NCBI GenBank assembly: GCA_027076405.1
Contig: JALTJN010000144.1
Coordinates: forward strand, 1 to 6,706
From: Chromatiales bacterium
GTDB taxonomy: Bacteria > Pseudomonadota > Gammaproteobacteria > UBA6429
Reading direction: 5' to 3'
Length of the DNA: 6,706 bases
Shown: in pieces, positions 1 to 4,948 of the stretch
Layout: each line of letters starts with the position of its first letter
Numbering within the stretch: position 1 is the first letter of the stretch
Notes under the pieces: model-generated
The model's database searches: none
What the model was told of the DNA's origin: nothing
What the model saw: only the letters and a program-made list of their open reading frames with translations
Position numbers and translations under genes: made by a program

Positions 1-1039
1 TTTTGTTGAACGAATATCTTTGAGACTTCTCAATCCATCCAAATATTTGTTCAGCTACCTCTTTTGAAACTATACCTTTCTTTTCACATCCTTCTAAAAA
101 CATGCCTTTAACCTTAGCCATAAGGTCGGCTTTTTTCTTACCAATACTGTTATGTACTAATATGCCATTAATGAATCCATAGTGATGTTCGTCGGAATCT
201 ACCTCGAAATCATACGTTCTTTTTTTACCAACATGTTTTATGCTTAGAATTTTAGACCATTTAGTAGATTTTGATCTTAAAGAATAGGTAATAATATAGT
301 CATTAGAAGTAAGATGTTGGCTCTGTTTCCATTCATCTTCCAAGGTAAAAATTTCATGTGTGCGTGTAACTTCTATTTTTTGACCAGTATCAACCAATAT
401 CTCATATACATCTTGCACACCAGAGAACCATACGTTTTTTATAGGTAAATAAGTTGGCGTATCATCTACTATTGTTAAAATATGGTCGTTACTATTAACA
501 GATTCTATAGGTTTAGGTCCATTGTTTGTATATACTAATGAACCCTTGGCAATGCACTTCCTCAGTATATCAGCTTCCTCCAAATTAAATCCAGCTATCT
601 CTTGTGCAATTCTCATAGACTGTTCTTGATATATCATTTCACCATATGTTTCATCCAATATATCCTTAAGACTAGGATGAACATAGTCTACCTCTTCTTC
701 TCCATTTTTGCGCAATATATAATGTTCGGCAACGTTTTTTCCATCGCGGACAGACTCAATACATCCAGGTCTCAAAATACTCATTAGGCCCGCTAAATGC
801 TCAATATTTTCGGGCTTTAGCTGTTTTGAATATTGTTGGCCAAATCTTGTTTCAAGCTGAAATACACCCTTAGTATTACCTTGTGCAAATAGGTCCCATG
901 TTAGAGGACAAGCAAGATTAATATTTTCTACATGTGGATCAAACTTAATACGCAGTTCTGGTTCATGTTGAACTATTGGAAAAGAACATCCACAAGAATA
1001 TTCCAAAAAATCACCATTAATTTTGGCAGACCGCTTCAC
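1..1039 (-). CDS. dnaE: DNA polymerase III alpha subunit, C-terminal half with an intein (3' end outside window)
   Basis: This open frame runs off the left edge; 346 codons are visible. From a GTG at 1039 a short new N-terminus (1-45, with C16, C18 and C44) leads into family C polymerase sequence. Landmarks are TKGVFQLET (56-64), SILRPG (87-92), EMIYQEQSMRIAQ (134-146) and GFNLEEADILRK (150-161). After a 136-residue intein (162-297) the polymerase resumes as SIGKKKADLMAKVKG, then EKSQRYSFNK at the edge. These segments align with the E. coli order VFQLES, FRPG, YQEQVMQIAQ, ADMLRRAMGKKK and GFNK, so this is the direct continuation of the protein encoded at 3062-4948. The beta-binding and C-terminal parts would lie beyond the window. 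GTG is chosen because GAGGGAG sits 9 bases upstream; the next upstream candidates are TTG codons without such a site. The gene makes a separate polypeptide, three genes downstream of its partner. Confidence 0.94.
   Translation of the reverse strand, partial: MKRSAKINGDFLEYSCGCSFPIVQHEPELRIKFDPHVENINLACPLTWDLFAQGNTKGVFQLETRFGQQYSKQLKPENIEHLAGLMSILRPGCIESVRDGKNVAEHYILRKNGEEEVDYVHPSLKDILDETYGEMIYQEQSMRIAQEIAGFNLEEADILRKCIAKGSLVYTNNGPKPIESVNSNDHILTIVDDTPTYLPIKNVWFSGVQDVYEILVDTGQKIEVTRTHEIFTLEDEWKQSQHLTSNDYIITYSLRSKSTKWSKILSIKHVGKKRTYDFEVDSDEHHYGFINGILVHNSIGKKKADLMAKVKGMFLEGCEKKGIVSKEVAEQIFGWIEKSQRYSFNK
149..556 (-). other. Mini-intein in the DnaE C half (136 residues, no homing endonuclease)
   Basis: An in-frame insert that has no counterpart in DnaE and carries the splicing blocks of a Hint domain. 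Block A is CIAKGSLVYTNNG with the nucleophile Cys1. Block B is IEVTRTHEIFT (61-71) with the TxxH motif (T64, H67). Block F is YDFEVDSDEHHYGF (115-128), with D116 and probably H124. Block G is INGILVHN (129-136), ending in the penultimate His135 and the terminal Asn136, followed by extein Ser +1. All residues needed for class 1 splicing are present. At 136 residues it is near the minimum length for a splicing domain, and nothing between blocks B and F could encode a LAGLIDADG or HNH endonuclease. Removing it joins ADILRK to SIGKKK, restoring the E. coli-like ADMLRRAMGKKK segment. It is contiguous, not split. Splicing must occur for the polymerase to have a normal sequence here. Confidence 0.94.
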
Positions 1040-1718
1040 GATTATAAGCTCCCTCAAATTGTACTCTTGGTGCAACTGATCTAAACAATCTCATAAATTT
1101 TTGTATCATCCAAGCCTCATCCCTAATATCTTTTAGGGCATCGTGGCTACCAGCAGTAGGTATACCAAAAAATTCTCTGAGAGTATCCATGTTGTAGCTT
1201 CCTGGCCTTTGGGTATTTTCAAACCAATAGAAGCTCATTTCCGTGATATCAATAACATCTCTTGGATAAAACAGTTTTTGTTCGCCGTTTTTGTCAGTTT
1301 GCCCATATTTTTTAGCTAATCTATCCACTATAATATTGTCAAATCTCCGTATATTGGCACCAGCGCGTATTGGGGCACTAAACTTAGTCCTACGAGATTG
1401 ATTCTTATTATATTTAAGTAGATATTGAACAAAATGTTCCCAACCCTGTTGTTGAGCAGGAAAAGAAAGCCATCTCTCATAGATTTCGCGCGGACTTACA
1501 CCATAATTGCCCGCGTGCCATTTAATAGTGCTTTCGTGCTCTGAGAAATAAGACTCATCATCTATATCTGATGGCCTCATGTTAACCATAAATTCAGAAT
1601 TTTCCACAATATCAAGCGTGATAGGATTAATTATGCACGCGGCTAACTGCACTGGTTCGCACGTATATGGGTCGGCACTATCAGTTTCAAAGTCATATAC
1701 ACATATAAAATTTTTCAT
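1017..1718 (-). CDS. DEDDh 3'-5' exonuclease, DnaQ/exonuclease I-like
   Basis: A 233-residue exonuclease-fold protein of the DnaQ superfamily. ExoI is VYDFET (D9, E11), ExoII is ANIRRFDNIIVDRL (D127) and ExoIII is SHDALKDIRD with the catalytic His192 and Asp197 spaced as in H-x-A-x-x-D. These are the four acidic residues and the general-base histidine of the DEDDh class, which trims single-stranded DNA or RNA 3' ends with two metal ions. The domain order and length resemble the nuclease core of exonuclease I as well as a proofreading subunit; it lacks the extra C-terminal domains of bacterial exonuclease I. The ATG has AGGA about 6 bases upstream. Its 3' end overlaps the start of the DnaE C half by 23 bases, so the two are probably translated in a coupled way, which supports a proofreading role for the split polymerase. 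That pairing is inference. Confidence 0.93.
   Translation of the reverse strand: MKNFICVYDFETDSADPYTCEPVQLAACIINPITLDIVENSEFMVNMRPSDIDDESYFSEHESTIKWHAGNYGVSPREIYERWLSFPAQQQGWEHFVQYLLKYNKNQSRRTKFSAPIRAGANIRRFDNIIVDRLAKKYGQTDKNGEQKLFYPRDVIDITEMSFYWFENTQRPGSYNMDTLREFFGIPTAGSHDALKDIRDEAWMIQKFMRLFRSVAPRVQFEGAYNREAVCQN
1049..1055 (-). promoter_or_regulatory. Ribosome binding site for the DnaE C half
   Basis: GAGGGAG lies 9 bases before the GTG at 1039, inside the end of the exonuclease gene. It is the strongest site near this frame and decides the GTG start. It also shows that the C half is initiated on its own rather than being a dead remnant. Confidence 0.8.
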
Positions 1719-1727
1719 ATTTTTCCT

Positions 1728-2579
1728 TTATGTATTCAGACATTGCTTACAATACTCCTTCACTAATTCGGCAGTTTTCCTAGAAATAGCCTTATTAGTG
1801 TTTTTGGTCCATACCACTTCTCCCTCAGACTCATCTTTAATATCTTGAATCATGGCGGGAATAATTAGGGGAATATTTTCGGGCATGGGTGATTTTTGAA
1901 GTGCCGAACATACATGTAATAATCTTTCCCGCGTCACCCATTCTTCTGCAATTGCTTGCGCTTCCTTCAATATCTGTAGTTCTTCATCGGTTAGTTTTCT
2001 GATGGTTTTTGTTTCTCTCCTATTTTCTTTTTTATGTTTGGCTACTATATATTCCCCATTATTCATTCTAACTTCAAATGGTGGACGCAAAATAATACCC
2101 TCAGATTCCTTATCGGAACCAACACCATTTTTCTCAGCCTGTTTAGATGGCCAATCCCTTGCGGCATTTACGCTATCTATATCTGTACTAATGAGTTCAT
2201 AATGCACGAAATCCAGGTCCAAGTTTGAACAAAAGTCATGTGCATTTGGAACATCTAATTTAAGACTGTCTACATAAACGTCAAAAGCCACAAATCTAAT
2301 ATCCGTTCCATATACAGAACTCATTCCTTGTATTTTGCCACCGTATCCTTCTCCATATATAATAACATTACTACCTAATCCTTCCAATTTAGATAATACA
2401 TTTTCAGAGAAGGCTTTAATTCCAAGTTCATATGAAATACCACGAATGTTAATAGATAGCTTTACATTAGGTCTAGAAATAGACCACCAGCTTCCATCTA
2501 TCTTTTCTAGGGCATATACTTTTTTGAATTCAAGAATTCTCCTATCTTTATAAAGATTCGGTATCTTCTTGTAACCCAT
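1728..2579 (-). CDS. RNA ligase, T4 Rnl2-like
   Basis: A 283-residue nucleotidyltransferase that should seal RNA ends using ATP through a covalent lysyl-AMP step. Motif I is EKIDG with the nucleophile Lys26. Motif Ia is probably NIRG (R46). GEGYGGKIQG (76-85, E77) matches the Rnl2 segment GE...GGxIQ. Motif IIIa is RFVAFDVYV (95-103), motif IV ESEGIILRP (158-166, E160) and motif V AKHKKENRRE (180-189, K181 and K183). The full set favours Rnl2-type RNA ligase over DNA ligase, which would normally be longer and carry an OB-fold. The C-terminal 90 residues look helical, as in Rnl2. The ATG at 2579 has GAGGAG 10 bases upstream. The stop lies 9 bases before the exonuclease start. In phages such ligases repair tRNA or other RNA cut by host defences; no kinase/phosphatase partner is visible in this window. 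Confidence 0.9.
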   Translation of the reverse strand: MGYKKIPNLYKDRRILEFKKVYALEKIDGSWWSISRPNVKLSINIRGISYELGIKAFSENVLSKLEGLGSNVIIYGEGYGGKIQGMSSVYGTDIRFVAFDVYVDSLKLDVPNAHDFCSNLDLDFVHYELISTDIDSVNAARDWPSKQAEKNGVGSDKESEGIILRPPFEVRMNNGEYIVAKHKKENRRETKTIRKLTDEELQILKEAQAIAEEWVTRERLLHVCSALQKSPMPENIPLIIPAMIQDIKDESEGEVVWTKNTNKAISRKTAELVKEYCKQCLNT

Positions 2580-3075
2580 CTTCTTCCAACTCCTCTACAT
2601 ATAGGTCCTGTTTATTATCGGTATTGCTTTCAACAAATTCCATTTCTACCACTTCTGATTGTGGTGTTTCCACAAATACGTCAACTTCTACTGTTCCAGC
2701 CAACATAGCCTTTTCGCCAGTATTTACATTGACTACCGCAAATTTTCCACCACCATCTCGTCCATCAGGATCATGTTTATATACTTCGCCGTTATATTGA
2801 AACCACGTTCCTCTCTCAACTACACTCAATTTCATTTTAATAGTCTCCTCACTAAGAGATAAAGATTCTGCTCTAAACGGTTGGTCATATACTTCGGTTT
2901 GGTCATTTAACAAAACCGTTTTTTGCTGTAAAACTCCATTAACCATTTCAAGTAATTTAGCATTATGTGGTGGACTACAACACGATCCACCAAAATGTTT
3001 CAATTTAATAAGTTTGTTGTCTCCGTACTGATCGGTAAAAAACTCTGCCCCTATTTTTAGATCAACAAATTTCAT
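2548..3075 (-). CDS. Acidic protein with two related beta-rich repeats, unknown function
   Basis: I do not recognise a named family. The protein (175 residues from the chosen start) contains two diverged copies of one module. Copy one (about 1-63) runs from MKFVDLKIGAEFF to VLLNDQTEVYD, and copy two (about 81-134) from MKLSVVERGTWFQYNGEVYK to GTVEVDVF. Each has the pattern of a short strand, G-x-x-F, a turn, a K-rich strand, then a Gly-rich stretch and N/V strands, which resembles small beta-barrel modules common in phage proteins. Residues 137-175 form a strongly acidic tail rich in Glu and Asp. The ATG at 3075 is preferred over the ATG at 3087 because GGAG lies 6 bases before it, while the earlier one has no usable site. 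It overlaps the end of the DnaE N half by 14 bases and the RNA ligase by 32. It is one of three genes separating the polymerase halves. Confidence 0.8.
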   Translation of the reverse strand: MKFVDLKIGAEFFTDQYGDNKLIKLKHFGGSCCSPPHNAKLLEMVNGVLQQKTVLLNDQTEVYDQPFRAESLSLSEETIKMKLSVVERGTWFQYNGEVYKHDPDGRDGGGKFAVVNVNTGEKAMLAGTVEVDVFVETPQSEVVEMEFVESNTDNKQDLYVEELEEDGLQEDTESL

Positions 3076-4948
3076 GAATTTCTCCATACTCTAAATCTTG
3101 GGCCACACCCATAATTTTGTCAAGTAGGGCGATCCCCAGAATATCAAATTTAAGACCACCAGCTTTTTCTAGGTCTTCCATTTCAAAACCAGCAATAGTT
3201 TTTTTGCTTTTTGAATCATACACCATAGGAAACATTGTGTCAAGTGGGTAAGGCGCAATAACTATACCAGCGGGATGCTTAGATTGGGCAGTTTTGGTTC
3301 CTTCAAGACGTATGGCCTGTTCAAATCGTTTAGCTAATGGACCAGCCAAATTACCATCATCATCAATGAAACACCATTTCTTCAACTTATTTGGCGTATT
3401 TTCTAGACACCACAATATAATAGAGGAAAATCCACGCTGTTTTTTCATGGTTTCCAATTCATCAGTAATTTTATGTTCTTCAATAATATTCTTGGTGATT
3501 TCGTTAACTTCATCATGAGATAAATCACCATATGCCCGAATAACATCTTTAAGAGCACCACGACCTTTCATGGTTTGGAATGTTATCATTTGGCCAACAT
3601 GATCTTCCCCATACTTTTCAGATACATATTTTATAATCTTATCTCTAGCATACTTAGGAACATCAATATCAATATCAGGCATAGAAATGTGGTCTTTAGT
3701 ATTCCGTCCAGCATTATAGAACCTTTCAAAAATTAAGCCATACTGTATTGGGTCAATAGAAGTAATTCCGAGTAAATATGATACTAAACAACCAGCCGCA
3801 CTTCCACGGCCTGTAGGAGTTAACCATCCATTATTTCTTACAAAATCAATAATATCTTTAACTACTAAGAAATACGCTGATAGTCCAGCTCCTTGTAATA
3901 CTTTAAGCTCATGTTTTACACGATCTGCATATATACTATGTTTTGACTTATCAATCTTTCCCTCTATCTTTTCTTTCCATCCTTCTCTACATAAATGTCT
4001 TAAATATTCATCAGCGTTCATACCATCTGGACACTCAAATTTTGGTAATACTGGAGAACGCAAAATATCATTGTATTCTTCTACCATTTCGGCAATTTTA
4101 AGGGTGTTTTGTAGTTCTTCCTCGGTATGCCATTCTTTCATTTCCTCATAAGTGGGAATATGATATTGCCTAGATTTAAAAAATCCACCTAATTCAAATC
4201 CTGGCATATTAGCTTGTTCAATGGTAACATGCATGTTTGTGCAAAGCAAAATTCTTTGGTCATCGGCATCTTCTTTTTTTGCATAGTGTGCGTCTTGTGT
4301 GGCCACACATGGTATTCCAGTATTTCTAGAAATTTCTCTAATACATTCAGCTATATCTTTTTGCAGAGAAAAATTCATATGGTCCATTAATTGAACTTCC
4401 AGAAAGAAATTACCGCGCCCAAATATGTCTTGAAGTTCGAGAGCCAGTTTACTTCCCTCATCTAGCCAATTCTCTTTTAATGATTCGCCTTCATCAAATA
4501 GTATATTTGCCATGTGTGAACCTATATGGCCGCTAAACGCTATAAGATTACCCTTTTGGGCAAATTGGGCGATTCTGTCTAAGTCTAGCCTTGGTTTATA
4601 GTAGAATAATTCTGGCGTATTAGACATAGAAACCATCTTGACCATATCTTTCCAACCAGCGTCGTTTTTTGCCAAAATACACATGTGCGCCAATTTACGA
4701 TTATTCTGGTCTTTAATGGAAGCATCCTTATTGCTCACATAAAATTCACAACCCAGTATTGGTTTTTTTCCTGCCTCACGCATTTCTAATAAGAACTGTA
4801 TGTGCGCACTAATATTACCGTGGTCTGTTATTGCACACCCAGGTACATCAATTTCTTTACACCGCTCAGCTATATCTTTTGGGGAAGACAGTCCATCTAA
4901 TAGACTATAATAACTATGTACGTGTAGTGGGAAATATGTATCAGCCAC
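3062..4948 (-). CDS. dnaE: DNA polymerase III alpha subunit, N-terminal half (split DnaE)
   Basis: This 628-residue protein is the first half of a bacterial C-family replicative polymerase. It opens with a PHP domain: HVHSYYSLLDG (9-19), AITDHGN (39-45), GCEFYV (66-71), HMCILAKND (88-96), SGHIGS (139-144) and QDAHY (218-222). The polymerase palm follows. GRGSAAGCLVSY (380-391) is the conserved Gly-Ser loop, PDIDID (424-429) carries two catalytic aspartates (D425, D427), and KFDILG (600-605) carries the third (D602). The reading frame ends 26 residues later at a true TGA, whereas whole alpha subunits run to about 1,100-1,200 residues. The missing fingers region begins in the gene at 1-1039. 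The start is GTG, with AGGG 9 bases upstream and an 8-base overlap with the macro gene. No intein fragment is visible at its C-terminus, so the break is not a split-intein junction. It should act in phage DNA synthesis together with the C half. Confidence 0.96.
   Translation of the reverse strand: MADTYFPLHVHSYYSLLDGLSSPKDIAERCKEIDVPGCAITDHGNISAHIQFLLEMREAGKKPILGCEFYVSNKDASIKDQNNRKLAHMCILAKNDAGWKDMVKMVSMSNTPELFYYKPRLDLDRIAQFAQKGNLIAFSGHIGSHMANILFDEGESLKENWLDEGSKLALELQDIFGRGNFFLEVQLMDHMNFSLQKDIAECIREISRNTGIPCVATQDAHYAKKEDADDQRILLCTNMHVTIEQANMPGFELGGFFKSRQYHIPTYEEMKEWHTEEELQNTLKIAEMVEEYNDILRSPVLPKFECPDGMNADEYLRHLCREGWKEKIEGKIDKSKHSIYADRVKHELKVLQGAGLSAYFLVVKDIIDFVRNNGWLTPTGRGSAAGCLVSYLLGITSIDPIQYGLIFERFYNAGRNTKDHISMPDIDIDVPKYARDKIIKYVSEKYGEDHVGQMITFQTMKGRGALKDVIRAYGDLSHDEVNEITKNIIEEHKITDELETMKKQRGFSSIILWCLENTPNKLKKWCFIDDDGNLAGPLAKRFEQAIRLEGTKTAQSKHPAGIVIAPYPLDTMFPMVYDSKSKKTIAGFEMEDLEKAGGLKFDILGIALLDKIMGVAQDLEYGEIHEIC
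3082..3085 (-). promoter_or_regulatory. Ribosome binding site deciding the start of the beta-repeat gene
   Basis: GGAG sits 6 bases before the ATG at 3075 and overlaps the alternative ATG at 3087. The spacing favours the downstream ATG. The site lies within the last codons of the DnaE N half, which suggests coupled translation. Confidence 0.7.

Follow-up and report, generated by a model that had tools for sequence, protein, structure and literature searches.

The window analysed here, a stretch of 6,706 nucleotides (nt) of contig JALTJN010000144.1 (assembly GCA_027076405.1), carries a replicative DNA polymerase of the C family (DnaE, the alpha subunit of DNA polymerase III, Pol III) as two separate genes, one for the PHP domain and the palm (N-part) and one for the fingers (C-part), with three further genes in between. 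All genes described for the window lie on the minus strand. The polymerase comprises the following features, with slashes marking intein borders here and below:

4948-3062, minus strand: N-part of dnaE, PHP and palm, 628 amino acids (aa; Pfam PHP 5.5e-37, DNA_pol3_alpha 6.6e-71)
3676-3674, 3670-3668 and 3145-3143, minus strand: codons of the catalytic aspartates D425, D427 and D602, respectively
1039-2, minus strand: C-part of dnaE, CxC head and fingers, open at the window edge (Pfam DNA_pol3_finger 2.5e-41)
986-994, minus strand: CGC motif in the head of the C-part
556-149, minus strand: complete mini-intein of 136 aa within the fingers, ADILRK/C...VHN/SIGKKK (Pfam Intein_splicing 5.4e-11; NCBIfam intein_Nterm over cut-off)

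The two-gene split and its motifs had been read in a preliminary description of the window, and the matches to the three Pfam polymerase families bear this reading out; the three catalytic aspartates had also been placed correctly. D425, D427 and D602 were invariant in all 64 aligned rows, and the fingers motifs FQLE, RPG, QEQ and RK.IGKK in all 62 rows. As described before, the N-part of the window ends 26 residues past D602. In the alignment with Taq alpha, the N-part reached chain residue 625 and the C-part set in at residue 647; for the 21 chain residues in between, the window products carry 19 + 38 residues, so that the earlier statement that no conserved segment was lost holds. Confident AlphaFold2 models of the window N-part (predicted local distance difference test, pLDDT, 92.3; predicted template modelling score, pTM, 0.90) and of the C-part of a relative, L031 (pLDDT 92.0, pTM 0.87), both had solved Pol III alpha chains in the PDB as best Foldseek matches. 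The helix-hairpin-helix (HhH) and OB domains of the window C-part are expected past the window edge, judging from relatives; the complete relative L002 has a C-part with HHH_6 and OB. The domain order is that of a C-family polymerase of the DnaE type, i.e., PHP followed by a palm with three aspartates, and fingers followed by HhH/OB (the latter seen in L002), except that palm and fingers are not located on one polypeptide. Of the 160 C-part heads, 124 contained CGC and 130 contained CxC; this element, modelled as short strands in L031, could be a docking element. The window N-part corresponds to protein database entry P0003, located on a 14.5-kb ENA contig.

Relatives were collected from IMG/VR, comprising 15 loci of a first scan and the best 80 of 580, 494 and 584 confirmed matches, respectively, of wider scans. 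This led to 246 loci, including repeats of one contig, of which 224 had both parts and 160 remained distinct when compared over the final 240 bases of the N match. In the first scan, 13 of 15 relatives reached the C-part and all 13 were split, and all 160 distinct loci were split at the same junction with the parts in different frames, their N-parts being 45–66% identical to that of the window. A search of relatives for the same break had been suggested in the preliminary description, which had taken the arrangement as settled rather than as fresh damage, and the result agrees with it; a continuous dnaE was found at none of the 160 loci. Twenty of the 246 loci lacked a C-part, 15 of them ending at most 0.9 kb past the N-part and five (L038, L079, L087, L093, and L324) running 1.9–3.4 kb past it to the contig end, and two (L141 and L115) had the N-part farther up the record, with gaps of about 6.8 and 0.7 kb. 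A protein database search yielded 7951 matches to the N-part among 7998 scored candidates, the best 120 all having 571–659 aa; this search admits only about 345–1099 aa and does not exclude continuous homologues. The break is confirmed as real, conserved, and lineage-wide, its recurrence in all 160 distinct loci going well past what chance would give.

The third aspartate was followed by 19–43 residues in 159 of the 160 distinct loci, with the exception of L171 and its early stop in the frame test, and at most 23–91 residues preceded FQLE in all 160. Because so few residues follow the aspartate or precede FQLE, the break offers no space for an intein half in the relatives, and none was detected there in the window with Pfam and NCBIfam, as the preliminary description had stated. 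A string of the type [HS]N[CST] appeared in the head of only one of the 160 C-parts, within native sequence. Rfam revealed no intron in the window or in nine relatives, the latter yielding only a tRNA.

Twenty contigs of 94–230 kb (G011–G030) harbored one palm and one fingers match each and no match to PolA or PolB, and the presence of a second dnaE or another polymerase was rejected for these contigs. Among 10 records analysed earlier, the fingers match was single in eight, double in G010, where it belongs to one intein-interrupted gene, and absent from the fragment G001. The terminase of the largest contig gave best rows of 24% identity over 69% of the query and shorter stretches of at most 31% (12 of 39 records). 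A GTDB scan led to 595 confirmed loci, the best 80 of which all showed at most 39% identity and were labelled as bacterial contigs. In 50,697 phage records, near-full-length matches to the N-part reached 36% identity at most, in an MT83 contig with a DnaE that clusters with Clostridia; this refers to the 40 best and 60 spread rows among 1352, which also included one stretch of 51% identity over 11% of the query.

In a tree of 83 rows, 54 of the 55 split rows, including the window, formed one clade (Shimodaira-Hasegawa-like approximate likelihood ratio test 100) separate from the continuous DnaE of phages and bacteria. The 55th, Rossellomorea phage phiT1, grouped with Phrappuccino (97, both being long branches) and moved next to the split clade (90, not starred) once three long rows were removed; we do not claim a second origin. 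This phage, which has a named host, shows a homologous palm/fingers split (gp20/gp19/gp18) but differs from the window lineage in a 49-aa open reading frame (ORF) between the parts, no exonuclease in the gap, and no CxC head. A viral contig scan with phiT1 gp20 resulted in nine pattern matches and no relative. As to bacterial DnaE, 77 of 80 loci were continuous in one frame, two were incomplete, and one (L223) was interrupted by an in-frame stop within the stretch matching the N-part.

The point at which phage DnaE is divided varies: splits were found between PHP and palm, within the palm, and between palm and fingers. Twelve of 15 loci from the phage collection, including six MT83 faecal contigs, were continuous, while phiT1 (L016) and Jayan (L017) were split and MMB025 (L019) was broken elsewhere. 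In Bacillus phage Jayan, the split falls inside the palm region, where a 76-aa ORF separates the parts; PS1 (L021), with a similar gene order, is continuous. Alicyclobacillus phage MMB025 is continuous at palm/fingers, and its DnaE stops just past ADILRKAIG and resumes beyond an endonuclease gene, near the intein site of the window, which would fit either an intron or a split intein. The actinophages Onyinye, Terapin, OverHedge, and Riparian share a two-gene DnaE with the window lineage but are broken between PHP and palm, and DnaE of Myrna, FEC19, and Pa204 is annotated as a single gene. Gene 74 of Mycobacterium phage Riparian (L285, 2495-3430), annotated as a sliding clamp, matches the PHP part of DnaE (residues 5-244 of the window N-part) and is probably the misannotated first half of the PHP/palm split. 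The six faecal contigs (L025–L030; MT836494, MT836213, MT835501, MT837297, MT835750, and MT835604) are human faecal records labelled 'UNVERIFIED: Bacteriophage sp.', and in the tree their DnaE falls within bacterial rows that are mostly labelled Clostridia, so they look like bacterial contigs within the phage collection.

Between the two parts of the polymerase, three genes were identified in the window:

3087-2548, minus strand: acidic ORF of 179 aa, no Pfam family over cut-off
2579-1728, minus strand: Rnl2-like RNA ligase (Pfam RNA_ligase 2e-8; NCBIfam RNL2 1.4e-10, under cut-off)
1718-1017, minus strand: DnaQ-like exonuclease (Pfam RNase_T 2.1e-5)

From the palm gene on, adjacent genes share 26, 32, and 23 nt, and the exonuclease gene is separated from the preceding one by 9 nt. 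The three intervening genes given in the preliminary description are a local feature of the window: in the first 122 loci, the gap between palm and fingers ranged from 692 to 4514 bp, mostly near 880 bp, and often contained one small gene and the exonuclease. The exonuclease gene is located between both parts in all 160 distinct loci. Its residues D9, E11, D127, H192, and D197, which we take to be the DEDDh set, are conserved in 99–100% of 103 rows in the order DxE, D, and H-x4-D; because of this conservation the enzyme is probably active, and it is the natural candidate for proofreading. In 90 of 122 relatives, a protein of about 60 aa with an SCC motif is encoded between palm and exonuclease, and the N-terminus of the acidic ORF resembles it (iterated profile 31.0 bits; E 4.5e-9 in a small ORF set). 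By stretch, the profile gave 20.4 bits followed by a second, weak match of 9.4 bits, which points to a possible second copy of the unit; the ORF had been described as an acidic repeat protein, and while the repeat may be right, the likeness to the small protein had been missed. The RNA ligase had no tblastn match across 137 representative loci. Other cargo in three scanned loci included a uracil-DNA glycosylase (L002), a glutamate-type dehydrogenase and an IMP dehydrogenase (L013), and a possible glycosyltransferase (L010). The gap extends up to 3.8–6.8 kb in L141 (G037), L013, and L059, with metabolic genes in L013, as if the interval between palm and fingers were a gene-acquisition site.

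Start sites and distances between the N- and C-parts were analysed in 102 of the 122 loci, with 20 loci of incomplete or interrupted parts omitted. In 98 of 102 loci, the C-gene starts −40 to +30 nt from the stop codon of the exonuclease gene, and since the C starts cluster there, coupled translation of exonuclease and C-part is suggested. A motif similar to Shine-Dalgarno was detected at 29 of 102 C starts and 47 of 102 N starts, compared to 103 of 1358 internal ATGs.

The motif ADILRK...GKKK had previously been taken as a plain part of the fingers, overlooking the mini-intein inside it. This element shows the features of a Hint-fold mini-intein, namely Cys1 (CIAKGS), a TRTH block, a terminal HN, and a Ser at position +1, and has no endonuclease domain. 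It should splice in cis without bridging the palm/fingers break, and it is a second feature, separate from the gene split. P0152 harbors an intein at the same LRK site (43% identical) and a second one at FNK/SH, where the window has none, the base after the FNK codon being an A, which excludes Cys. Altogether, inteins were identified in 16 of the best 120 C-part homologues (3237 passed), all proteins of more than 680 aa in which the sites were read by eye; 12 of the 16 had a Pfam intein domain and the other four were recognized by reading. The sites were the position after RPG (six; a search pattern for this site also matches a native Cys), GEM/CYQEQ (two), LRK/SIGKK (two), and FN(K or H)/SH (seven), with P0152 having two. 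L015 carries a LAGLIDADG intein. Split inteins were found in the palm of L140 (1981-5114) at GRG/SAAG and, on the reverse strand, in the fingers of L275 at FNK/SH, in both cases with a nuclease-like ORF between the N- and C-intein halves; the ORF of L140 showed a weak Phage_endo_I/TnsA-like match under the Pfam cut-offs, and that of L275 matched DUF559 over cut-off. None of the inteins of the relatives is located at the palm/fingers break.

Further upstream on the minus strand, the window contains the following features:

6704-6147, minus strand: end of a PD-(D/E)XK nuclease
between this and the next gene, minus strand: two ORFs of 84 aa and 157 aa
5468-4941, minus strand: macro-domain protein, adjoining the N-part gene of dnaE

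The macro-domain protein resembles DarG, a DNA ADP-ribosylglycohydrolase antitoxin (NCBIfam 1.3e-18, under cut-off), and its product might counter a DarT-type defence.

Cyanobacterial DnaE is broken inside the fingers region. Fractured genes, in which split inteins come together with a homing endonuclease, were reportedly described by Dassa et al. in 2009; like the window locus they consist of a two-gene protein with genes in between. No intein half and no free-standing homing endonuclease with it was found at the palm/fingers break, while L140 and L275 do fit this type. The preliminary description had named the cyanobacterial DnaE, joined by a split intein, as the known case; this kind exists, but two-part Pol III alphas have been described in phages as well. 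The cyanobacterial DnaE also consists of two genes, with a split intein (PMC3919608), whereas the window lineage has no intein halves facing the break. Iyer et al. 2021 (PMC7824862) reported, for jumbo phages of group 2.2, a minimal Pol III alpha split in two and predicted that the parts reconstitute the enzyme. As in the window lineage, the C-family catalytic subunit is formed by two phage proteins; however, according to the same paper (PMC7824862), the genes are distant, the other Pol III domains are lacking, Mg2+ binding lies in the C-terminal part, and a family B polymerase is present. In contrast, the window lineage possesses PHP, HhH, and OB, has neighbouring genes (0.7–4.5 kb apart in 122 loci) and all catalytic aspartates in the N-part, and showed no PolB match in the 20 large contigs. 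A two-gene phage DnaE is shared by Microbacterium cluster EF phages, for which two genes related to Pol III alpha are mentioned (PMC7302621). In other families, OM43 phages MEP401/402 have a family A polymerase in two ORFs with an ORF in between (PMC10580990), and jumbo phage MIJ3 a family B polymerase in two ORFs with an ORF in between and intein motifs on both sides (PMC6892783). Regarding surveys of bacterial C-family polymerases, PMC3919608 mentions the cyanobacterial split inteins, while the excerpt of PMC12926913 contains no such split; nor was a split alpha subunit found in the excerpts of PMC2147016 and PMC10674732. In the open-licence literature, no description of the phage lineage of the window was found.

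Based on these results, the locus is most probably explained by a replicative C-family polymerase that became fixed as two genes in an uncultured lineage of tailed phages, with its parts assembling non-covalently. One protein would contribute PHP and a palm bearing the three catalytic aspartates, and its partner the fingers, helix-hairpin-helix, and OB fold. Fingers contact the deoxynucleoside triphosphate and the template; as the cut crosses the site of DNA synthesis, the pieces probably must fit together to work. The two proteins would associate non-covalently, jointly building the active site in trans, and the DnaQ-like exonuclease encoded between them may join the complex, probably as proofreading subunit. 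In the phage of the window, the fingers protein would first excise its mini-intein in cis, a step unrelated to the break. Several points weigh against this explanation. The association of palm and fingers proteins is something we infer; the 20 large contigs lack a completeness estimate, so that a polymerase outside them is possible; and the family of the beta-clamp C-terminal domain was unmatched in all 20 (G011–G030), which leaves processivity unexplained. Moreover, 73 of 102 C starts and 55 of 102 N starts have no Shine-Dalgarno-like motif, translation proceeding partly via gene overlap, and the correlation of N and C distances (r 0.92) is expected of any co-inherited neighbours. As a tentative extension, which we would not favor at present, the replicase could be an obligate multi-subunit enzyme in which palm, fingers, and exonuclease, together with the partner of about 60 aa, form one complex encoded by an operon in the order palm, small protein, exonuclease, and fingers, the split perhaps deriving from a fractured gene.

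That palm and fingers do not form one enzyme, one of them instead serving the host DnaE or another role while a host or unrecognised polymerase copies the phage, would be in accordance with the unmatched clamp family and with an assembly that we infer; invariant catalytic aspartates and fingers motifs, the single palm and fingers matches of the 20 contigs, their lack of PolA and PolB, and the close spacing of the two parts make it improbable. Rejoining of the halves by an unrecognised trans-splicing of RNA or protein appears very improbable too: the polymerase does attract inteins at four sites in the C-part homologues, with split ones in L140 and L275, and cyanobacterial DnaE is rejoined in this way (PMC3919608), but the residues at the break are too few for intein halves, Rfam revealed no intron in the window or the nine relatives, and the known inteins are located at other sites. 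Regarding decay or misassembly, i.e., a frameshift, chimera, or recent insertion in an intact dnaE, the internally broken N-part of L168 and the early stop of L171 are of the kind expected, though the same junction in all distinct loci with N-parts this diverged, and the strong residue conservation, contradict it, and we consider its probability negligible. A different question, compatible with non-covalent assembly, is how the split arose rather than how it works now. A split intein with a homing endonuclease may once have resided at the palm-fingers junction and been lost once the halves assembled by themselves, leaving exonuclease and cargo behind. Such a stage is present today at the other sites in L140 and L275, and in MMB025 an endonuclease gene interrupts DnaE close to the LRK site; however, no intein remnant is left at the ancestral break, plain insertion of an exonuclease gene gives the identical order, and the L140 ORF matches nucleases only under the Pfam cut-offs, so that this origin is to be regarded as rather unlikely.

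Among the relatives, two N-parts were irregular. That of L168 (3148-4933), with an out-of-frame break and missing residues, probably reflects a chimera or a deletion, and the N frame of L171 stops early. For L171 and L154, whose N- and C-parts had looked discordant, a swap of halves was considered and rejected, the N frame of L171 being a stub.

While DnaE is one chain in the bacterial controls, this group of phages keeps palm and fingers apart and seems to replicate large genomes that way. It thereby provides a natural two-piece polymerase for studying the opening and closing of the fingers and the exonuclease as a possible bridge. Because intact, cis-intein, and split-intein states coexist at other sites of both genes, the lineage also offers a route to the question of how split inteins yield to non-covalent assembly.

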